Below are positions 26,289 to 37,237 of a DNA stretch of 64,000 nucleotides, in pieces. The DNA lies in contig CALKGK010000043.1 in NCBI GenBank assembly GCA_938085105.1, positions 1-64,000 of the forward strand, given 5' to 3'. Source of the DNA: an uncultured Flavobacteriales bacterium. Its GTDB lineage: Bacteria > Bacteroidota > Bacteroidia > Flavobacteriales_D > Sanyastnellaceae. Position 1 is the first letter of the stretch. Each line of letters starts with the position of its first letter. The position numbers and the translations under genes were made by a program. Under the pieces are notes generated by a model. It was not told where the DNA came from. It searched no databases and worked only from the letters and a program-made list of their open reading frames with translations.

Positions 26289-26592
26289 GTGCATCGCCTT
26301 TTTTCGAGAGCAGCGCAGAGCTCTTCAACCATTCTGTTGAGGTGAACTTCTCTCAAATCATCAAAAGCCCTAAATCGAGCATCAGCGATTAAAATTTCGG
26401 TACAGAAAAATTCCCTGCCCCCACTGAATAGCGGGCAAACACCTTCATTTTAAAGGAATTAAAGCCAAAATTGAAGACAAGTATTCTAAAAATTTTGTTA
26501 GCTTGTAAGAACCTTAGTACTTAAAAACCAACTAAACCATTTAATCAACCTTGGGCCGACTACTCTCCAAAGGCTCAGCAACACACTCTACA

Positions 26593-29500
26593 ATGAACAC
26601 TTTCCCGCGCTATCTCGTAGCATTCGTTTGCTGCTTAGGCTTTGTATTTCTCAATATTGGAGAACTGAAGGCTCAAGTCAATTGCGGTGGTTGTACCGAC
26701 CCCACTGCCTGTAACTACAACCCCTCTGCTACTGAAGATGATGGGTCTTGTATATCCACTCCCGATTGTGGGCTATGGGCGGCAGATGACATTTTGTGCA
26801 TCAATGAAGGAGAAAACTTGTCTTACAACGTACTTTGCAACGACAATGTTTCCGACTTTCCATTCGTTATTGAAGCCCAAGGAAACGATTGTTTTTCCAT
26901 CAGCGAAAACGGTGATGTGATTCAAAACAATCTCCAAGACATCGACTGCTGTGGAGAGCATTTCATTCCTTACACCATCTTTTTTCAAGACGGCACCCAA
27001 CAAGTGCTCCAGGCCAATTTGCGCATTACTGTCAAATGTGGAAAGCCGGACTGTTCCATCATCGATTTAGAAACCGTGATTGGCAGTCCAGTAGGTGATG
27101 GAGGCTTAAGTGTGGTGGATTGTTTTGACGTTTGTGAAAATTCGGTAAGTACACTTCAATACCCTTTCAACCCTTCTTTTTCCTACGATTGGACGGGCGT
27201 CATCGGTGGAGTTGGGAGTCTGGGAGCGAATCCTGCAGAACTTATTGTCTCTTGGAATAATTTCGGCAGTGGTTTCGTGAGTTTGGATGTGTATGACGGA
27301 AACGGAAACGTCACAAGCTTCAACTTTTGTGTGAACATCTTAGAAGGTCCTGTTGCTGATTTTAGCTCCACGGGATACGTTTGTTTGGATTCACCCATCT
27401 GCTTCACCAATTTGAGCAGCAATGCAGATGGTTATCAGTGGGACTTTGGAGACGGTGTTGTTTCGAACATGTCTGATCCATGCCACACGTACTCTTCACC
27501 CGGAACCTACACAGTAACCCTCACTGCCACCAAAGCCAATTTTGATGCAGAAGGAAACCCGCTATGCTGTTGCACCGATGTGTCAACAGCCACTGTCGTT
27601 GTAGACGATCTTCCAGGACCAAACATCTATTGGATTTCTACTTTATGCGAAGGAGACAACTCCAACTATTGGACCGATGCGGCCAACTGTGGAAGTTACT
27701 TTTGGACGGTTGAAGATGCCGATGGAAACCCTGTACTTTTCACTGGGCAAGGAACTCCAGACATCAATGTAACGTGGGGAGCGGGTCCGGTGGGTACCGT
27801 TACTCTCGCCGTTACTGATTGCGATGATGATTACTGCTCCAACCCAACAAGCGTCACTGTTCCTATTATTTCAGCCAACGGCACCATTGATGGCTCCGAT
27901 GCTGTATGTGAATTTAGTACTCAGACTTACTGCGTTCCGAAATGGCAAAGCACCGTTTACAATTGGACCATCACGGGAGGAAGCATTGTTTCTTCACCCG
28001 ATGGCAACTGCATTACCGTAGTTTGGGGTCCTGCTGGCGTGGGAACACTTCATGTTGACTACTCAAGTGCTTTTCTAGCTGGATTGCCGAATCACAGTGC
28101 TGGAGATTGTGAAGGCTCTGCCGACCTTACGGTTAACATCATTCCTTCATACGATGTGATTAACACAGGTCCATCCGTGGTTTGTGTTGGAGATGTATCC
28201 AACATCATCACCAGTTCTAGCCCGAACCCCAATTGCACGTGGAACATCAGTCCTGCTCATCCCTTCACTGGAGATGGAACAGATCAGATCAGCATCAACT
28301 GGACCACACCTGGAACTTACATCATTGAAGCAGTACCAGTGAACCCAATGGATTATTGCAACGGTCCGGAGTCCATCATCATTCAAGTTCAAGACATCCC
28401 GGCACCAACGGCCATTGATGGAAACCTCTCCGTTTGTCCGAACTCCACCCACTACTACAGCATTCCTAGTCCAAATCCGAGTTACAGCTACTTTTGGTCG
28501 ACAACCAACGGCACACCTGTATCGGGCACAGGGACCAGTATCGGAGTAACTTGGGACAATATCCCTGGTCCGTTCAGCTTGACCGTTTATGCTCAGTCGA
28601 ATGGGACTTCAGGCTGTCAATCGGAAGATTTCACCATCACCATCGAACCAAAAACCATTGATGGTCCGCTAGCCATCTCACCTGATGTTGCTTGTTCCAA
28701 CACCATCAGCTCACACAGTTTAACGCCAATGCAGGATGATGATGCCACCATCACTTGGTCTGTTGTTCCTGCCGTTGCCGGGAGCGTATTGGTTCAGAAC
28801 GATGAGAACACTCAAATTCAATGGAACGATTGGTCGGGAAGTGCACAGATTATCGTGGAAGTTGAACTTTGCGGAATCACGGACAGTGAAAGCATCACCG
28901 TGCCTGTCAATCAGCCGATCGTCCCTGTGATCACACAAACAGGAGTACTTTGCACGGGCTCCAATGCGACCCTTTCGACCACGGTTCCGTTCAGTTCATA
29001 CGATTGGTCAACGTTCGACACGAGCCCAACAACGGTCATTTCGAGCCAAGGAAATTACGCTGTGACGACCGTAGATGGGAACGGATGTGTTGCCACGTCC
29101 AGCTTTGATGCCAACGAAATACCCGGACCAAGCGCATCGATCTCCACAGGAAACAATACCACCATCTGCCTATCGAACCCACACACGGTTACCCTCATTG
29201 CTCAGTTCAATGCCAACTTCAGTTATCAGTGGTATTGCGGCGGAGTCCTTGTGCCGGGTGCAACTGGAGACACTTATGATCACCCTTTCCAAGGAGTAGC
29301 AGGCTCCTATCCTTATTGGGTTGTGGTGACCGACAATACTTCTGGTTGCATGAACACCTCCGACACGATTGTGGTGAACGAATCCACCTGCCCACCCAAC
29401 CCATGCACACCTGAACCGCATTCGTTCAACATCACGACCGCTCAAAATCAAGCTACAAACTGCAACGTTATTGATTTTGAAACCACCATGAGCAATGCCA

Positions 29501-32500
29501 CCTTCAGCACATGGAGCTTTGGGGATGGTGCCTTATCGGGCTTAAACCCAACTTCTCACACCTACACCACAGCTGGGTGTTACAACGTGATTGCTACGGG
29601 TTCAGCTCCTGACGTGAACGGAAATGGAAATTGTTCCGTGAATGATCAAGTCACCGTATGCGTTCCTGTAGCTGCTGAATTTGACTTCGCTTTCTTGAGC
29701 TGTACCAATGTTCAATTCAACGAATTCGCAACCTTCATCAATACAGACCCCGCCAATACGATTGTGTCTTACCTTTGGGACTTCGATGGTTTTGGTACTT
29801 CAACTGCCATGAACCCCAGCTTTGATTTTGCGCTGCCCATTCCTCCAGGAAATCACCCCGTAACACTTACGGTCACTACCGATGGTGGTTGTCAAGCAAG
29901 CATTACTCACGACGTCTTCATTGATTCTGTCGGAGCCACAGCAATTAACGTTGTTCCCGGACCAACATGCGTTGGTGACCCCATTGCCATGAGCGCTTCT
30001 GCCAGTGGTGCAACTACTTATGATTGGGACTTTGGAGATCTTTCCTACTTCCTTGGAGCATCTACAACGCATACCTATACTGCACCTGGGAACTACACAA
30101 TCACAGTGGTTTCAACGAACGCCGCTGGATGCAGTTCAAGCACGAGCATCCCCATCACCATTTTCCCAGCCATTCCCGACCTCAGCATCACTGCGAGTCC
30201 CGATTTGGCTATTTGTGAAGGCCAAACCACCACGCTTTCTGCTCCTCCAGGATATGCTTATCAATGGTCCAATGGAATGACCACACAGAGCATTACTGTT
30301 GGTGCAGGTTTGTATTCGGTATTGATTACCGATGGCAATGGATGTGAATCAGAGTTGGAAGAAGTTGAAGTTACAGAACTTCCTCTTCCAGATGCTAGCA
30401 TTAGTGGAAATACCTTCATTTGTGATGCCGGATGCTCCTTGTTGAGCGCCCCTTCCGGTGTTGGGCTCTCTTATGAGTGGTACGATGCCCTTTCGAACTC
30501 TTTGGGTACAGGAAGTCAGATCAACGTTTGCACGCCCTTGCTTTCGAATCAGTTCTTTGTGGAAATTACTGATCAAAATGGATGCAAAAATGTTTCGGCA
30601 CCGTTTGATGTTTTCCAAGCGACATCGCCCTCTTTCAGTGTAACTGTTGCCCCTAATGGATGTGCAGGAGAGTTGAATACCTTGAGTGTTGTTCCTGTTC
30701 AGCCGGGTGTATCCTACGTTTGGAGCGATGGTACCACAGGTCCTAGCATGACAACAACCCAAGCAGGCACGTATTACGTTACTGGAACCGACGACGCCAC
30801 TGGGTGTAGCTTCAGTTCTCAAGGAACGGTAAACCCGCAGCCAGATCTTTGTTTGGTTCCTGTAGGATGTTATACCGCTTGCGAGCCCTATGAATTGTGT
30901 GCTCCGATTGGTTTTGTGAGCTACCAATGGAATCTTGATGGCAATCCTATTCCTGGTGCTACAATGCCATGCTATACCGCTACCATGAGTGGAACTTATA
31001 CGGTGACGGCGATGAACAACTTTAATTGTTCGGACACTTCGGGCGACCTCGTCTTGGAAATCATTCCTTGCAATGGCTGTGAAGATGTGAGCGTGAGCTC
31101 AACGCCAGCGGTGAACAATAACGAGCCCGACCCTTGCTGTTTTGACCTCCACTACAGCAATGGATATAGTGGTCCGCTCCAAGGCTTGTCGGTTTACACT
31201 TCAGACAGCGACTTTGCCTTTGACGTGGCCTCCATCAATCCTCTTCTTGGTTTGACAGGCAGCACCTCCAATTCGGTGGATCTTATCTCCATCACCCCCG
31301 GTTCACCTATTCCAACAGGCACCTTAAGCAATGTGATCTCCTTGTGTTTGGAAAATGTGGTGAACAGTCCGCAAACAGTGTACATTGACTGGTATGATTT
31401 CGATAATGAAGTGGTTTGTCAAGATTCCTTGATTTTCGATTGTCCTGTTGAGCCGGACTGCCTCTATCTAAGCGATCAAGATATCTATTGTGAGAACGGT
31501 CAAACCGTTTACGAGTTTACTGTTTGCAACCCGAACGACGCGGATTGGCCTGTTGCATATTTCAGTATGGATGCCATTACCCCAGGATTCTTGGTTTCCA
31601 GTCCATCTGACTTCACCCCTTCTCCTGCAATCGCTCCTGGATCTTGTCAAAGCTTCACGGCTATATTAAGCGGACCTGGTATTGGTGGGGAAGTGTTCTG
31701 CTTCAACCTCATCGCTCATGAATTTGATCCTTTGGAAGTACCCAACACAGAATGTTGCAGTTTGGACACACTGTATTGCATTGATATTCCACCGTGCGAT
31801 CCTTGTGAAGACGTGGGCGTATTTGATGTAACGAGTACCGATCCTGATGACTGCTGTTTGAGCGTGGACCTCTTTAACAACTACTCTTCTTCCTTCTTTG
31901 ATGAGATTGCTGTTTGTGCCATCACGCCTTCCACTACACTTACTGTAGGTAACTACATTGGTTCTGGATGGACCACCAGCAATTACACGGGAACTTCATT
32001 CAGTTTGATTCCAGATGCCACTTTTGGGAATTTTGTTCCAGGTGGGAATTTCACCTTGCCTGAAATATGTGCTCAAACCAGCGTTGCTCCGCCCCAATTG
32101 ATGGAAATCAAGTGGATGGTGGAAGGAGAAATTGTTTGTAGGGACACCATTGCGAATTTCTGCGAACCGGATTGTGCCTATTTCCAAGACGAGATCATAG
32201 AATGCAATCAAAACACTTGGAACTGGTCAGCAAACATTAAGAACACCTCCGACTTCGTTGTTTCAGAAGCCGTAATCAACTTCAATGACCCCGCCCTTGC
32301 CGCCTATAACCAAGTGGTGAGCACAGGCTCTCTGGCACCGGGGGCTACATTCGGACCTATCAATCTGTCCATTGGTTCACCAGCATTGGCAGGACAAACC
32401 ATCTGCTTTACGGTAACCATTCATGAGATTGGTTCGAACGGACAATACCTGAGCTGTTGTAATTTTGAACATTGCATCACGCTTCCCGACTGTGGATTTG

Positions 32501-33066
32501 CCAGTGAGTGTTCCTGTGATGAGAGTTTCTTCGATGCGGTTAATCTTGGATTCACTACCGCGTCGATTGGTCCCAATACCCTCGGCTTCACCATGACCGA
32601 CTACCTCTACTTTGGTGAGTGTGATATCATGTATTGGAAGTTTGGTGATGGAACGCCAATTGAAACTTCTCTCGGAAACCAATCCATCATTCACACCTAT
32701 CCTGGTCCTGGTATTTACACCGTTTGTGTTCGCGTGTACCGAACGGCAGCAGACGGCAGTACTTGTGTTCGAAAAGTATGCACTGAGATCTTTGTTCCAA
32801 GTGCCTTCGGATTGGAGGACCTCATCACGGTGTTCCCCAACCCGAACAATGGTGACTTTAAAATCGCCATTAACCAAGCCTTGGATGAAGGAATGGACAT
32901 CAATATCTATGATGGAACGCAGCGATTGATTCACTCCAGATCATTGTCAAGCATCAAGGAGGCTCAAGTTCAGCGATTCGACTTGAAAGAATATGGTAAA
33001 GGGCTCTACTTTATTCATTTCAGACGAGGGAATGAGCTGCACATTGAGAAGATTATTGTGTTCTAG
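26593..33066 (+). CDS. Giant PKD-rich surface protein with T9SS type A sorting domain
   Basis: 2157 residues from the ATG at 26593; the signal peptide ends LKA-Q (residue ~28). The frame reaches back to a TTG at 26551, which I reject. Close to the N-terminus is the CTDPTACNYNP...DDGSC motif common in flavobacterial surface proteins. At least five PKD-like domains are marked by W-[DKS]-F-G-D or close variants followed by HTY...G-x-Y-x-V (for example 27440, 29517, 30024 and 32637). Residues 1496-1737 and 1738-1975 are two copies of one cysteine-rich module. The C-terminus is a sorting domain: VFPNPNNGDF, INIYDG, YGKGLYFIHF. Probably an adhesin or matrix protein; it lies alone between terminators. 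Confidence 0.9.
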   Translation: MNTFPRYLVAFVCCLGFVFLNIGELKAQVNCGGCTDPTACNYNPSATEDDGSCISTPDCGLWAADDILCINEGENLSYNVLCNDNVSDFPFVIEAQGNDCFSISENGDVIQNNLQDIDCCGEHFIPYTIFFQDGTQQVLQANLRITVKCGKPDCSIIDLETVIGSPVGDGGLSVVDCFDVCENSVSTLQYPFNPSFSYDWTGVIGGVGSLGANPAELIVSWNNFGSGFVSLDVYDGNGNVTSFNFCVNILEGPVADFSSTGYVCLDSPICFTNLSSNADGYQWDFGDGVVSNMSDPCHTYSSPGTYTVTLTATKANFDAEGNPLCCCTDVSTATVVVDDLPGPNIYWISTLCEGDNSNYWTDAANCGSYFWTVEDADGNPVLFTGQGTPDINVTWGAGPVGTVTLAVTDCDDDYCSNPTSVTVPIISANGTIDGSDAVCEFSTQTYCVPKWQSTVYNWTITGGSIVSSPDGNCITVVWGPAGVGTLHVDYSSAFLAGLPNHSAGDCEGSADLTVNIIPSYDVINTGPSVVCVGDVSNIITSSSPNPNCTWNISPAHPFTGDGTDQISINWTTPGTYIIEAVPVNPMDYCNGPESIIIQVQDIPAPTAIDGNLSVCPNSTHYYSIPSPNPSYSYFWSTTNGTPVSGTGTSIGVTWDNIPGPFSLTVYAQSNGTSGCQSEDFTITIEPKTIDGPLAISPDVACSNTISSHSLTPMQDDDATITWSVVPAVAGSVLVQNDENTQIQWNDWSGSAQIIVEVELCGITDSESITVPVNQPIVPVITQTGVLCTGSNATLSTTVPFSSYDWSTFDTSPTTVISSQGNYAVTTVDGNGCVATSSFDANEIPGPSASISTGNNTTICLSNPHTVTLIAQFNANFSYQWYCGGVLVPGATGDTYDHPFQGVAGSYPYWVVVTDNTSGCMNTSDTIVVNESTCPPNPCTPEPHSFNITTAQNQATNCNVIDFETTMSNATFSTWSFGDGALSGLNPTSHTYTTAGCYNVIATGSAPDVNGNGNCSVNDQVTVCVPVAAEFDFAFLSCTNVQFNEFATFINTDPANTIVSYLWDFDGFGTSTAMNPSFDFALPIPPGNHPVTLTVTTDGGCQASITHDVFIDSVGATAINVVPGPTCVGDPIAMSASASGATTYDWDFGDLSYFLGASTTHTYTAPGNYTITVVSTNAAGCSSSTSIPITIFPAIPDLSITASPDLAICEGQTTTLSAPPGYAYQWSNGMTTQSITVGAGLYSVLITDGNGCESELEEVEVTELPLPDASISGNTFICDAGCSLLSAPSGVGLSYEWYDALSNSLGTGSQINVCTPLLSNQFFVEITDQNGCKNVSAPFDVFQATSPSFSVTVAPNGCAGELNTLSVVPVQPGVSYVWSDGTTGPSMTTTQAGTYYVTGTDDATGCSFSSQGTVNPQPDLCLVPVGCYTACEPYELCAPIGFVSYQWNLDGNPIPGATMPCYTATMSGTYTVTAMNNFNCSDTSGDLVLEIIPCNGCEDVSVSSTPAVNNNEPDPCCFDLHYSNGYSGPLQGLSVYTSDSDFAFDVASINPLLGLTGSTSNSVDLISITPGSPIPTGTLSNVISLCLENVVNSPQTVYIDWYDFDNEVVCQDSLIFDCPVEPDCLYLSDQDIYCENGQTVYEFTVCNPNDADWPVAYFSMDAITPGFLVSSPSDFTPSPAIAPGSCQSFTAILSGPGIGGEVFCFNLIAHEFDPLEVPNTECCSLDTLYCIDIPPCDPCEDVGVFDVTSTDPDDCCLSVDLFNNYSSSFFDEIAVCAITPSTTLTVGNYIGSGWTTSNYTGTSFSLIPDATFGNFVPGGNFTLPEICAQTSVAPPQLMEIKWMVEGEIVCRDTIANFCEPDCAYFQDEIIECNQNTWNWSANIKNTSDFVVSEAVINFNDPALAAYNQVVSTGSLAPGATFGPINLSIGSPALAGQTICFTVTIHEIGSNGQYLSCCNFEHCITLPDCGFASECSCDESFFDAVNLGFTTASIGPNTLGFTMTDYLYFGECDIMYWKFGDGTPIETSLGNQSIIHTYPGPGIYTVCVRVYRTAADGSTCVRKVCTEIFVPSAFGLEDLITVFPNPNNGDFKIAINQALDEGMDINIYDGTQRLIHSRSLSSIKEAQVQRFDLKEYGKGLYFIHFRRGNELHIEKIIVF

Positions 33067-33100: not shown

Positions 33101-33134
33101 ACAAGAGCGTCGGCAAGTGAGCCGACGCTTTTGT
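33101..33134. terminator. Bidirectional terminator between giant gene and response regulator
   Basis: ACAAGAGCGTCGGC-AAGTGA-GCCGACGCTTTTGT, a 14-bp stem with one G-U. Plus-strand stops follow for the giant gene; on the minus strand AAAATAAAA before the stem gives TTTTATTTT for the response-regulator operon. Confidence 0.85.
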
Positions 33135-33209: not shown

Positions 33210-33851
33210 CTACTCCACCAAGTTGTTTCTCATTGCAAAAAGCACGATTCCTACCCTTGTTTTCACGTTGAGTTTATCGCAGATGGCTTTTCTCCAACCC
33301 TCTGAAGTTCTGGGCGAAACGTGCATTTCTCCCGCAATTTCTTTGTTAGACAATTCAGTGCAGAGGTATTGAATGAATTTGATCTCTTGCTCTGAGAAGG
33401 AAATGCCTGCTTGAGCTTCAGGGCTGAGCTGATTGGTGTGCACTGTTTTGATCAATTTTCCTGAGACGAGATCTGAAAAATGATAGCCTGTGTTGTGTAC
33501 ATCTCGAATAGCCCTTTGCATTTGTTCTCTTCTTGAGCTTTTGAGCAGGTAAGCTCTTGCTCCGGCCTTGAGCATGCGAATCACATTGATGTCGTCTTCG
33601 AGGGCGCTGAGAGCGATTACTTTGAGTTCTGGACGATGTTCCTGAAGCCAGAGTGTGGTTTCTATGCCATCCATCTCTGGCATGTTGATATCCATCAGCA
33701 CCAAATCCAAAGAAACGCCTTCCATCTTTTTGATCAAATCTGCACCGTTATTGGCGTGGATCAATACTTCGGCATCTTCCTCCTCCACGAGTCGGGCAAT
33801 TCCCTCCCGAATTAAATCGTGGTCGTCAACAATGGCAATTTTTAATTTCAT
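33210..33851 (-). CDS. NarL/LuxR-type response regulator
   Basis: Receiver domain (residues 1-120) with the acidic pair in IAIVDDHDLIREG, phosphoacceptor Asp54 in LVLMDINMPEMDG, Ser/Thr switch in IALSAL and Lys in YLLKSS. The C-terminal HTH (about 145-213) has ELSNKEIAGEMHVSPRTSEGWRKAI, the LuxR-type DNA-binding pattern. Its start overlaps the kinase stop by 4 bases, so it is the partner of that kinase. Confidence 0.94.
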   Translation of the reverse strand: MKLKIAIVDDHDLIREGIARLVEEEDAEVLIHANNGADLIKKMEGVSLDLVLMDINMPEMDGIETTLWLQEHRPELKVIALSALEDDINVIRMLKAGARAYLLKSSRREQMQRAIRDVHNTGYHFSDLVSGKLIKTVHTNQLSPEAQAGISFSEQEIKFIQYLCTELSNKEIAGEMHVSPRTSEGWRKAICDKLNVKTRVGIVLFAMRNNLVE

Positions 33852-34600
33852 GGATGATTTTCTTGTGGCAAGACGATTTCAACTCGTGTTCCTTTGCCTA
33901 AGGTACTTTGAATATTCAGCTCTCCCCCCATCATGTCCACCCGATTTTTCAAACTTTTCATTCCTAGTCCGGAAAATTCCAAGCTTGGATCAAAGCCCAC
34001 ACCAAAGTCCTCTATGGTAAGTGTGAGTGATTGATTTTGGAGACTCAAGCTGACTAAGATTTTGTCAGTTTGAGCGTGCTTCATCACATTGGAAAGCATT
34101 TCTTGTGCGCAGCGGTAGAGAATGATCTCTTCTTGCTCGCTCAAGGCGAAGTGTTCTGTGGGGGGCGAATAGATGCAGCTTTTCCCGGTAGCCTTTTCGA
34201 TGAGTTGACATTCTTTCTCCAAAGCCAAATCGAGCCCCATGTCCTTAACTCGGGGAGAATGAAGGCTTCGTGATAGGTCTCTCAAATCGCTCAACATTTC
34301 TTGAAGAAGCAGTTTCATCTCCTCCCCTCCAAGTCCTTGTTGATTCATTTGAATGGCGAGGGTCATTCGTTGACCAATGTTGTCATGAATTTCTTGAGCA
34401 ATTTGATTCATGGTGATTTGCGCCGTTTCCAACTGAGAACTCAGCAATTCTGATTGAAACTCTTTTTGAAGAAGTACCCGGTCTTTTAGATATGACTTTT
34501 GAGTTTTCCTGTATAGCAGGACAAACATCACTAGGGCAACAGCTAGCATCAGAAATAAGAGAGCACCTCCATATATCACTATTCGAGCCTCTGGGGTCAT
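33848..34600 (-). CDS. Sensor histidine kinase, HisKA_3 type
   Basis: 250 aa. One N-terminal membrane helix (residues ~6-30) with almost no extracellular part, then a short coiled-coil linker, the dimerisation domain with phosphoacceptor His72 in QEIHDNIGQRMTLAI, and an HATPase domain with DFGVGFD and GLGMKSLKNRVDMMGG. It lacks an input domain of its own and overlaps by 4 bases both the 7-TM gene upstream and the regulator gene downstream, so sensing is likely delegated to the neighbouring membrane protein (inference). Confidence 0.93.
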   Translation of the reverse strand: MTPEARIVIYGGALLFLMLAVALVMFVLLYRKTQKSYLKDRVLLQKEFQSELLSSQLETAQITMNQIAQEIHDNIGQRMTLAIQMNQQGLGGEEMKLLLQEMLSDLRDLSRSLHSPRVKDMGLDLALEKECQLIEKATGKSCIYSPPTEHFALSEQEEIILYRCAQEMLSNVMKHAQTDKILVSLSLQNQSLTLTIEDFGVGFDPSLEFSGLGMKSLKNRVDMMGGELNIQSTLGKGTRVEIVLPQENHP

Positions 34601-35238
34601 AGATGAAATGCATTAACTGATGGCGTAGGACTTTTTTGTGGAAGAAGAAAAGCGATGCCAAAACACAGGTAATATAAAATCGAAAACGAAATGTGTAAAT
34701 CAACAATGAGGGGGCCATTTCCCAAGGAGGACATAACGGTGTTGAAATACCCCAAATAGGTGAAGAAGGTGCATTGATAGACAATAATATTGGAGGCCAT
34801 CAAAAAGTGCACGTTTTGATACAAAGGCCTATCGTCTGATTTCTCAAGAAGCGCGAATAAACCAAGGAGGGCCGAAAAAACAATCAGCAAGATGCTTGAA
34901 AGAATAAAGGCAGACGGAAACCGTGTTGAAATTGAAAAGAATTTGACAACACCAATTGCGGCTATGGCAATCGCGAAGACCAGAAGTAGTGTTTTTTGCT
35001 TCTCACGTACCAATATATTTCGGAAAGCAAGAACATAAAATGCTGCACTGATTCCGCCATAAAGCCAATACAGCCTGAAATCACTGAAAAGTGGATCGAC
35101 TTGCCCAACCCACTCATGAATTGCAGTATAGACCAATAAAGCACTGATGATCTTCATGGAAGTATCCAGTTGCCGAAATCGATAGACCCCCACGAAAGCG
35201 ACGAATATTAGAACAAAAAGATAGGCCTGTATGAGCAT
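34597..35238 (-). CDS. Seven-helix membrane protein of a kinase cassette
   Basis: 213 aa with seven hydrophobic segments: YLFVLIFVAFVGVY, IISALLVYTAI, FRLYWLYGGISAAFYVLAF, LLLVFAIAIAAIGVV, AFILSSILLIVFSALLGLF, MASNIIVYQCTFFTYL and ISFSILYYLCFGIAFLL. No transporter or enzyme motif. This resembles the membrane input modules that precede many kinases, but as a separate protein. Overlaps the kinase gene by 4 bases. Role as sensor is inference. Confidence 0.8.
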   Translation of the reverse strand: MLIQAYLFVLIFVAFVGVYRFRQLDTSMKIISALLVYTAIHEWVGQVDPLFSDFRLYWLYGGISAAFYVLAFRNILVREKQKTLLLVFAIAIAAIGVVKFFSISTRFPSAFILSSILLIVFSALLGLFALLEKSDDRPLYQNVHFLMASNIIVYQCTFFTYLGYFNTVMSSLGNGPLIVDLHISFSILYYLCFGIAFLLPQKSPTPSVNAFHL

Positions 35239-35253
35239 GAAAATGATTATCGT

Positions 35254-35913
35254 TTACTGACAGGGTTCTGCACAATTGGTTTGAGGGTAGTTTTCCCGAG
35301 CCAAATCAAGTTTCCCCAAGTATTCAGAGGGACATATCTCAGGACACGTAGGCAAGAATTCAAAAGCAACAATGTTGGTATCACCCGCAGTGATGCTGTA
35401 TTGATTTTCATACGTTCCACCCTTTTCGAAGGTAGGGCAAATTACCAAAGTCATTGCATTTTCCAAAAGGCCTTGTGTTTGACCTAATTTGTAAGGTTGC
35501 TGACGAAGTGCAGGATAGATGCGTATGCCTGAGAATGAATCGGGTGCTCCACTTTGACGTTTTTTCAGCAAGGCTTTTAAGTCATCTTCAGAAATGAACC
35601 AGGAGTGCACGAATGCATCAGGCACCGAATCTACCGTGGAACAGACATTGGGTTCTGAGGCAATGGGCGCCATTAAAGGAGCATTGATGGATTTATTAAA
35701 ATCTCGAAAGCCGTTCACCCAACACAGCGCTTTTTTGGTGGCAATGGGATGCATGGTTGGAGCTGGAGACAGTGGCACTTGGAGAATGGCCAACTCAGGT
35801 ACCCCTGAAGTAGATTCTTTTGCAGTGGCTTCCTTCATGTTCATGATCATGACAGCCATTAAGGAGCCGAGGACACCTCCTAGAAGCAGATAATATAAGC
35901 CGCTGATTTTCAT
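35254..35913 (-). CDS. Hypothetical membrane-anchored protein, 219 aa
   Basis: An N-terminal hydrophobic helix (YYLLLGGVLGSLMAVMIM, residues ~7-24) without a lipobox or clear cleavage site, so probably an anchor with the rest in the periplasm. The soluble part carries about nine cysteines, several in pairs near the end (TCPEIC, NCAEPC), suggesting disulfides. No recognised domain. First gene of the four-gene cassette ending in the response regulator, 15 bases before the 7-TM gene. Function unknown; an accessory of the sensor is possible. Confidence 0.75.
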   Translation of the reverse strand: MKISGLYYLLLGGVLGSLMAVMIMNMKEATAKESTSGVPELAILQVPLSPAPTMHPIATKKALCWVNGFRDFNKSINAPLMAPIASEPNVCSTVDSVPDAFVHSWFISEDDLKALLKKRQSGAPDSFSGIRIYPALRQQPYKLGQTQGLLENAMTLVICPTFEKGGTYENQYSITAGDTNIVAFEFLPTCPEICPSEYLGKLDLARENYPQTNCAEPCQ

Positions 35914-36278: not shown

Positions 36279-36305
36279 AAAAAAGCTCCAACGGGAGCTT
36301 TTTTT
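36279..36305 (-). terminator. Terminator of the guaA-hemF operon
   Basis: AAAAAAGCTCC-AACG-GGAGCTTTTTTT. Symmetric, 36 bases after the hemF stop, with U runs on both strands. Confidence 0.85.
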
Positions 36306-36340: not shown

Positions 36341-37237
36341 TTACACCCAATCAATTCCCTTCTTCAACAATGACAAAGTTCGTGCTTCTTCACTTCCTTC
36401 TTCTGTTTCATGCTGATAGGCCCAATTGGCGGTGTTTGGAAGACTCATCAAGATGCTTTCTGTTCTTCCATTCGATACCAAACCAAAACGAGTTCCGCGA
36501 TCGTGCACGAGGTTGAACTCGACATAGCGCCCTCTACGAAGCAACTGCCACTCGCGGTCTGCGTCTGTTCGTTCAAGGTTCCTGTTTTTGTTAACGAGCG
36601 CAGTGTACACTGGTGCAAATTGTTGAGCCAGATCAATGGTAAACGCTTTGATTTCATCCATGGCACTCTGGTCGTTCTTGCCCAAATGGTCATAAAAAAC
36701 GCCACCTATTCCGCGGGTTTCTTCTCTGTGCGGCAAATAGAAGTAATCGTCTGCCCAAGCTTTGAACTTGCTGTAATTGGCCACTTCACTGTGCTGATCG
36801 CATACCTTTTTTAAAGCTTGATGGAAAAAGTGGGCGTCTTCGTCGTTAATGAAATGTGGGGTGAGATCAATTCCACCGCCAAACCAAGCCACTCCGTCTG
36901 ACAACTCGAAATAACGAACGTTCATGTGGATGATGGGCACTCTGGGGTGGTTGGGATGAATAACAATGGATACCCCTGTGGCATAAAATCGCTCGGCTTT
37001 GGTGTCCAGTTGTTTCTGGAGTCCGACGGTCACTTCACCGTGAACCTCACTAAAGTTCACTCCACCTTTTTCGAAAATGTCACCTTCAGCGATCACACGC
37101 GATCTTCCCCCGCCGCCGCCTTCTCTTTCCCAAGAATCTTCTTGAAAACCCGCTTTCCCATCGCATTCGGCCAAAGCCATACAGATGTCGTCTTGAATTT
37201 GCTGAAAGGAGGCTTTCAACTGCTCTTTATCCACCAT
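36341..37237 (-). CDS. hemF: Oxygen-dependent coproporphyrinogen III oxidase
   Basis: Oxidative decarboxylation of coproporphyrinogen III to protoporphyrinogen IX in heme synthesis. Family blocks: WEREGGGGGRSRVI, FEKGGVNFSEVHG, HPNHPRVPIIHMNVRYFE, WFGGGIDLTPHF, KAWADDYFYLPHREETRGIGGVFYD, RRGRYVEFNLVHDRGTRFGL. 298 aa is standard. Its start overlaps the stop of the LysM gene by 11 bases. Its need for oxygen indicates an aerobic lifestyle. Confidence 0.96.
   Translation of the reverse strand: MVDKEQLKASFQQIQDDICMALAECDGKAGFQEDSWEREGGGGGRSRVIAEGDIFEKGGVNFSEVHGEVTVGLQKQLDTKAERFYATGVSIVIHPNHPRVPIIHMNVRYFELSDGVAWFGGGIDLTPHFINDEDAHFFHQALKKVCDQHSEVANYSKFKAWADDYFYLPHREETRGIGGVFYDHLGKNDQSAMDEIKAFTIDLAQQFAPVYTALVNKNRNLERTDADREWQLLRRGRYVEFNLVHDRGTRFGLVSNGRTESILMSLPNTANWAYQHETEEGSEEARTLSLLKKGIDWV

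Follow-up and report, generated by a model that had tools for sequence, protein, structure and literature searches.

A four-gene cassette of Bacteroidota that reads as a split membrane receptor: a detached seven-helix protein beside a sensor-less histidine kinase

The 64-kb window analyzed here, positions 1 to 64,000 of contig CALKGK010000043.1 in the assembly GCA_938085105.1 of an uncultured Flavobacteriales bacterium, contains at 33210-35913 a four-gene cassette that probably encodes a membrane receptor divided between chains and feeding a two-component system. Its four open reading frames (ORFs) are real, all lie on the minus strand, and follow one another in the order U-TM7-HK-RR. U (35254..35913, 219 aa) is an N-terminally anchored member of a divergent family, TM7 (34597..35238, 213 aa) a detached seven-helix protein proposed as the receptor, HK (33848..34600, 250 aa) a HisKA_3/HATPase_c histidine kinase, and RR (33210..33851, 213 aa) a response regulator with a receiver and a LuxR-type (GerE) DNA-binding domain. 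The cassette is best read as a split receptor-kinase among the accessory-sensor two-component systems, with the separate TM7 most likely the sensing module for a kinase that lacks a sensor. An earlier reading made from the letters of this DNA (the sequence-only reading) had proposed the same four-gene set and the division of a seven-transmembrane-plus-kinase receptor between chains; the four ORFs lie where it placed them, and the division is supported by the co-occurrence of the genes. Its 4-base overlaps are found at TM7/HK and HK/RR, whereas U and TM7 do not overlap and stand 15 nt apart (35239..35253).

The kinase has a short N-terminus with one N-terminal transmembrane (TM) helix, and neither Pfam nor NCBIfam finds an input or sensor domain in it, in agreement with the sequence-only description. 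Pfam finds only HATPase_c (E 3.7e-15) and, just below its cutoff of 24 bits, HisKA_3 (23.4 bits). The H-box EIHDN (His72) and the ATP-binding boxes are present, and residues H72, D73, N74, N171, D198, G200 and G202 are invariant in an alignment of seven sequences. RR, also assigned from Pfam and alignment, matches Response_reg and GerE.

The association of TM7 with this kinase recurs across Bacteroidota; the loci considered throughout are the best-scoring matches of each search. In a set of 80 genomes TM7 is matched in seven, and all seven carry U-TM7-HK-RR in that order (the window's own genome counts in both numbers), which is more than chance. Identities of the six relatives to the window are 21-34% for TM7, 28-55% for HK, 38-72% for RR and 18-27% for U, by which measure the input side of the cassette is more divergent than the rest. 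A TM7 profile of seven rows matches 28 of 395 Bacteroidota genomes. A profile of 77 rows, in a scan that scored at most seven candidates per genome and so gives lower bounds, matches at least 88 of the 395, in at least 51 of 171 genera, with 11 of these genomes belonging to other classes than that of the window and up to seven matches per genome. The TM7 loci taken from these searches (30 from the first profile, 30 from the second with 16 at the same places by coordinates, and five more from the set of 80 genomes) come to 49 distinct places, the own genome included, and a histidine kinase stands in the cassette at all 49. It follows TM7 directly in 27 of the 30 loci of the seven-row profile; the kinase of L033 (also L155) is a divergent one, with profile E 2e-06. 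No TM7-kinase fusion occurs among the listed matches of the 77-row profile, none of which lies in an open frame longer than 290 aa.

Starting from the kinase gives the same picture. A 19-row kinase profile was run over GTDB genomes, and in the best 80 of 579 (all 80 Bacteroidota by title, with Chitinophaga, Mucilaginibacter, Pedobacter and Sphingobacterium among the genera) TM7 lies immediately upstream of the kinase in 79 (profile E <=1.3e-11). In the exception, L066 (3900-5795, plus strand), the same kinase core is fused to TPR repeats, with TPR_12, HisKA_3 and HATPase_c all over the Pfam cutoff, and TM7 is absent; this is a natural swap of the input module. RR is recognized downstream by profile in 70 of the 80, some of the misses apparently being contig ends or inserted genes. 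Of the 79 cassettes, 53 have a U recognized by profile ahead of TM7; the other 26 have another TM7 there (2), no ORF found (2) or an unrecognized ORF (22), and several of these 22, not counted here, look U-related by eye. Starting from U, a 49-row profile matches 58 of the 395 genomes. TM7 stands beside U at all 30 U loci examined, and HK also lies within the 1.5-kb flank in 28; at L240 and L265, the remaining two, another U or TM7 stands in between. The sequence-only reading had suggested a genome-wide co-occurrence search as its check, and had held that TM7 or the anchored protein widespread without the kinase, or either one recognized as a transporter or enzyme subunit, would count against it. 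Nothing of the kind appears in the loci examined, and the search gives 49 of 49 from TM7 to kinase, 30 of 30 from U to TM7, and 79 of 80 from kinase to TM7.

HisKA_3 kinases in general are without TM7. In a control of 61 genomes, compared by eye among the listed matches of the HisKA_3 and TM7 scans, most HisKA_3 places are open frames of several hundred to more than 1000 residues, and only two of the longer frames coincide with a TM7 place. Among the nine listed kinases with frames under 300 aa, eight have TM7 in the cassette, five by coordinates against the TM7 scan and three by inspection of the locus (in one of these an extra U separates TM7 from HK). A scan of genome contigs with a single TM7 sequence confirmed no relative, the family being too divergent for single-sequence search. 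A plasmid search with one TM7 (that of L024) gave no match.

The TM7 protein of the window has no Pfam or NCBIfam match at E<=1. A wider set of 32 members yields lone weak matches to DUF2627 (3.6e-4), SDF (9.4e-4; a sodium:dicarboxylate symporter family) and STM3941 (1.8e-4). We take these as chance, as we do a DUF2714 match (9.3e-4) of one member in a wider set of 49 U proteins, because no second member shares them. TM7 or U as a transporter or enzyme subunit is therefore rejected, since the weak family matches are confined to single members; the sequence-only remark that the protein has no transport motif holds for the window protein, with scattered matches of this kind in the wider set.

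That the 213-aa protein consists of seven helices, as first read from its letters, is borne out by an AlphaFold2 model built from 77 sequences (pLDDT 92.7, pTM 0.88), which places them at residues 2-19, 26-47, 55-73, 79-101, 109-132, 143-171 and 175-198. The alignment combines 76 of 79 TM7 sequences with the window's own, leaving aside L054 (long), L067 (short) and L091. Against the Protein Data Bank (PDB), Foldseek gives 9r23 as the top match of the model (TM-score 0.62 by query, E 0.075). By title, 46 of the best 50 rows are rhodopsins, G protein-coupled receptors (GPCRs), LYCHOS or a designed GPCR-like fold; another is 'Structure of Receptor', and the other three are 4xly, AdipoR2 and Myomaker. 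VIA-align, a re-examination of Foldseek's candidates, has titles of the former kinds in 50 of 50 rows, with mGlu receptors, LYCHOS, bacteriorhodopsin, sensory rhodopsin II and other GPCRs aligning over 189-207 residues at Z 11.9-13.7 and a root-mean-square deviation of 3.7-5.9. These modest fold scores support, without proving, a predicted rhodopsin/GPCR-like arrangement of TM7. At the level of sequence, a search of the PDB with the TM7 profile (E<=1) gives two matches, at E 0.18 and 0.21, and these are not rhodopsins or GPCRs.

Rhodopsins and GPCRs have the N-terminus outside and the C-terminus inside. The positive-inside charge bias predicts this topology for 75 of the 77 TM7 sequences, with two ties, and so supports but does not prove it. 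Microbial rhodopsins also bind retinal through a lysine of helix 7. TM7 has no conserved lysine in this helix, where the best column has 18 of 77 and lies at the helix start, and TM7 as a retinal protein is rejected on this ground. The most conserved positions in the 77 sequences are F145 (90%), W146 (87%), Y190 (79%), Y57 (77%), N53 (76%), G150 (74%) and E42 (70%); the window protein departs from three of them, with Leu for W146, Asp for N53 and Asn for G150. Because the predicted topology puts E42, N53 and Y57 near the outer face and F145/W146 near the inner face, we infer a pocket on the outside and a coupling region on the inside. Neither the alignment of seven sequences nor that of 77 has a conserved Cys/His/Asp catalytic set.

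U is the more elusive partner. The window protein has no Pfam or NCBIfam match at E<=1, and its place as first cassette gene follows from ORF coordinates, alignments, a low-confidence model (pLDDT 63.6) and homologues that precede TM7. Foldseek with this weak model gave nothing usable, and the U profile found nothing convincing among PDB sequences. The alignment (48 of 52 U proteins with E<1e-4 plus the window's own, omitting L051, L057, L073 and L094) has a 'GxRIY' core and a frequent CPxxC near the C-terminus. The sequence-only reading had called the 219-aa protein anchored, cysteine-paired and a periplasmic accessory subunit. The N-terminal membrane helix is present in the model; the pairing stands only in part, since the number of its cysteines, seven, is odd and the close clade of seven sequences keeps just two of them throughout, C190 and C194 of the CPxxC. 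The periplasmic placement suits the anchored window protein and is not general. Among pooled upstream candidates 87 of 112 match the U profile (L017 and L018, duplicates of counted loci, are omitted), and by a crude hydrophobicity rule 65 of the 87 have no N-terminal hydrophobic segment, 14 have one and eight look like lipoproteins; 51 of the 87 carry a CPxxC-like motif. Where U lies with respect to the membrane may thus differ among homologues.

Some cassettes stack their inputs, as U-TM7-TM7-TM7-HK-RR or U-TM7-U-TM7-HK-RR. At L044 a second U-TM7 pair follows the first ahead of HK-RR, and at L045 two more TM7 genes follow TM7, ahead of a 412-aa PAS/HisKA/HATPase_c kinase. The kinase at L023 is a 667-aa PAS/HATPase_c protein with HisKA below cutoff. 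Two of the 49 TM7 places use such a different, PAS-bearing HisKA kinase, with one starting TM helix by eye. Stacks of two or three TM7 per kinase, together with the exchange of kinase type, fit a plug-in receptor.

Other variants were seen along the way. Two or three tandem TM7 genes precede a single kinase at L127, L128, L130, L072 and L080. A second kinase-like protein without a TM helix lies between HK and RR at L110 (5883-6542, plus strand) and L266 (1640-2299, minus strand); Tyr replaces the phospho-acceptor His (ELYDNVGQ) and the ATP boxes look degenerate by eye, so that it is possibly a pseudokinase subunit of the cassette. At L267 a second kinase-like ORF, likewise TM-less, retains the His. 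At L234 (2494-3243, minus strand) a lipoprotein-like U homologue lies between TM7 and HK, besides the usual upstream U.

If the parts act as a receptor, the TM7 heptahelical bundle would take up a signal in or at the membrane and, having no effector domain, would relay its state to the separate HK through the single N-terminal TM helix and linker of the kinase. HK would autophosphorylate on His72 and then phosphorylate the LuxR-type RR, and U, as the partner of TM7, may present or modulate the signal. The role of TM7 as kinase input module is supported but not proven; its docking on the kinase TM helix, the direction of signaling and the role of U are inferred.

Co-divergence of the parts bears on the docking. 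Spearman correlations of tree distances were calculated for 71 of the 79 TM7-HK cassettes (an RR ORF under 260 aa being required) and for a subset of 49 in which a U profile match with E<1e-4 was also required. In the 71 cassettes TM7 correlates at 0.517 with the 75-residue stretch that precedes the kinase H-box (TM helix and linker), at 0.344 with the catalytic part and at 0.184 with RR; four of 500 permutations reach the TM7-RR value and none reach the other two. The catalytic part and RR correlate at 0.588. In the 49 cassettes TM7 is U's best partner (0.553, against 0.263 for U and the kinase TM part), and the partial correlation of TM7 with the kinase TM part given the catalytic part is 0.37, the reverse being 0.20. 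The correlations drop along the presumed relay, which supports contact of TM7 with the kinase and does not prove it, because gene order yields the same gradient.

Several points weigh against the split receptor. Linked inheritance could give part of that gradient, and in the 49 cassettes the correlations of TM7 with the kinase TM part and with the catalytic part are close (0.599 vs 0.537). Foldseek has nothing at E<=0.001 for the TM7 model against the PDB, and for VIA Z scores such as these (at most 13.7) the tool warns that they may reflect an arrangement common among helical bundles. TM7 is very divergent, with the start Met the sole invariant residue among the 77 sequences. One of the nine short HisKA_3 kinases of the control (L231) is without TM7. 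U looks soluble in most cassettes and goes unrecognized in 26 of the 79 kinase-sampled ones, making a single role hard to state.

The alternative that survives best, itself unlikely, makes TM7 an accessory regulator, LiaF- or WalH-like, that sets the activity or stability of a kinase whose own TM helix does the membrane sensing. HK does possess such a helix, and repression of kinases by accessory membrane proteins is a frequent and known principle (PMC8534201). The presence of TM7 in 79 of 80 kinase-sampled loci speaks against a regulator, as does its absence where the kinase bears its own input domain (L066), and several TM7 ahead of one kinase suit separate inputs better than redundant regulators.

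In the logic of AgrBDCA and ComQXPA, a signal is made by a membrane maturation enzyme with catalytic residues and answered by a two-component pair. A small variable protein, a membrane protein, a kinase and a LuxR regulator, in that order, would suit a set in which HK-RR answer to U, a signal that is secreted or processed, with TM7 as its exporter or maturation factor; no part varies more than U, which is often small and carries the CPxxC-like motif in the proportion given above. We think this still less probable: TM7 lacks the conserved catalytic residues that such a maturation enzyme has, the single-TM kinase has no receptor part of its own for detecting a peptide, 65 of the 87 U proteins have no N-terminal hydrophobic segment, and a stack may hold one U for three TM7. 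That TM7 and U are merely operon neighbors functionally unrelated to the kinase, as genes sharing an operon can be, is very improbable for an association found from three starting points (kinase, TM7 and U) with TM7 in so many of the genera sampled.

That a sensor-less kinase can draw its signal from a neighboring membrane protein is a known principle (PMC8534201, which cites Mascher 2014). In the intramembrane-sensing Bce-type pair BceS-BceAB a short kinase likewise has no sensor domain outside the cytoplasm, and the adjacent membrane protein acts as its sensor (PMC8534201); LiaFSR also places an accessory membrane sensor next to such a kinase (PMC3543457). The cassette kinase resembles these in having neither an extracytoplasmic nor a cytoplasmic input domain and in its dedicated membrane partner alongside (79 of 80). 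The partner differs from that of the Bce type in being heptahelical and belonging to no named family: no ABC transporter permease or ATPase is found, TM7 and U having no family and the cassette no further gene. There is also a third subunit, U, and the kinase has one TM helix where BceS has two (PMC8534201). Several sensors may share one kinase in the cassette, unlike both Bce-type and LiaFSR systems.

A separate seven-helix receptor with a membrane transducer is known from sensory rhodopsin II-HtrII (PMC5292967), and there too the receptor is its own chain beside a membrane signaling partner. Sensory rhodopsin II is among the nearest solved folds of TM7 (3qap, Z 12.0). TM7 differs in lacking the conserved helix-7 lysine (no retinal by that criterion) and in standing beside a histidine kinase instead of a chemotaxis transducer. 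Fused seven-TM kinases such as BtsS, of the LytS type, are known (PMC10653868). The 7TMR-DISM, HisKA_7TM and LytS-type kinases share with the cassette a seven-helix input to a histidine kinase; theirs lies in the kinase chain, whereas TM7 is separate among the matches listed. Neither 7TMR-DISM_7TM (PF07695) nor HisKA_7TM (PF16927) matches the window TM7 or appears among 25 of the 28 families for the 32 wider members. Profile-profile probabilities are 3.7 for TM7 against 7TMR-DISM and 0.6 against HisKA_7TM, neither of them significant, in a blunt test by which the two known families fail to match each other. Judging by two 7TMR-DISM_7TM matches in long frames (C44:60793-61404, 737 aa; C12:27644-28246, 626 aa), the own genome apparently has seven-helix inputs of the fused as well as the detached kind.

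Around the cassette, a terminator scan finds a terminator-like hairpin downstream of RR (33106..33129, minus strand; 9 pairs, 7 GC). Upstream, 427 nt separate U from the next ORF, which ends at 36341. A repeat search and the sequence give, in this gap and after that upstream gene, a perfect 11-nt inverted repeat (36279..36304), T-ended on the minus strand, which looks like the upstream gene's terminator and the upstream border of the cassette unit. The terminator scan does not call this repeat, and promoter and terminator sites in the region are no more numerous than in shuffles. The convergent neighbor (26551-33066, plus strand, 2171 aa), whose stop is 143 nt from that of RR, shows PKD-like repeats and a sorting-type C-terminus by eye. 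A defense system was rejected: a PADLOC search with the four cassette proteins returns a single weak match, RR (E 0.0038).

We found no description of this cassette among the open-access titles and abstract openings covered, subscription papers and preprints lying outside the search. The split-receptor reading suggests a likely signaling role for two unannotated families, TM7 and U, and would explain the input of short Bacteroidota kinases apparently without a sensor. More tentatively, split GPCR-like receptors may form a large class in Bacteroidota that has no name yet: heptahelical sensors that stand alone, use no retinal and, each with a small partner U, serve as exchangeable inputs to single-TM kinases. 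If so, several receptors could feed a single kinase, and kinases of different types could be driven by one receptor family. A separate, stackable receptor found across the phylum would supply a non-photosensory counterpart to the rhodopsin-transducer pair, and would make receptor-kinase coupling testable by the mixing of parts.

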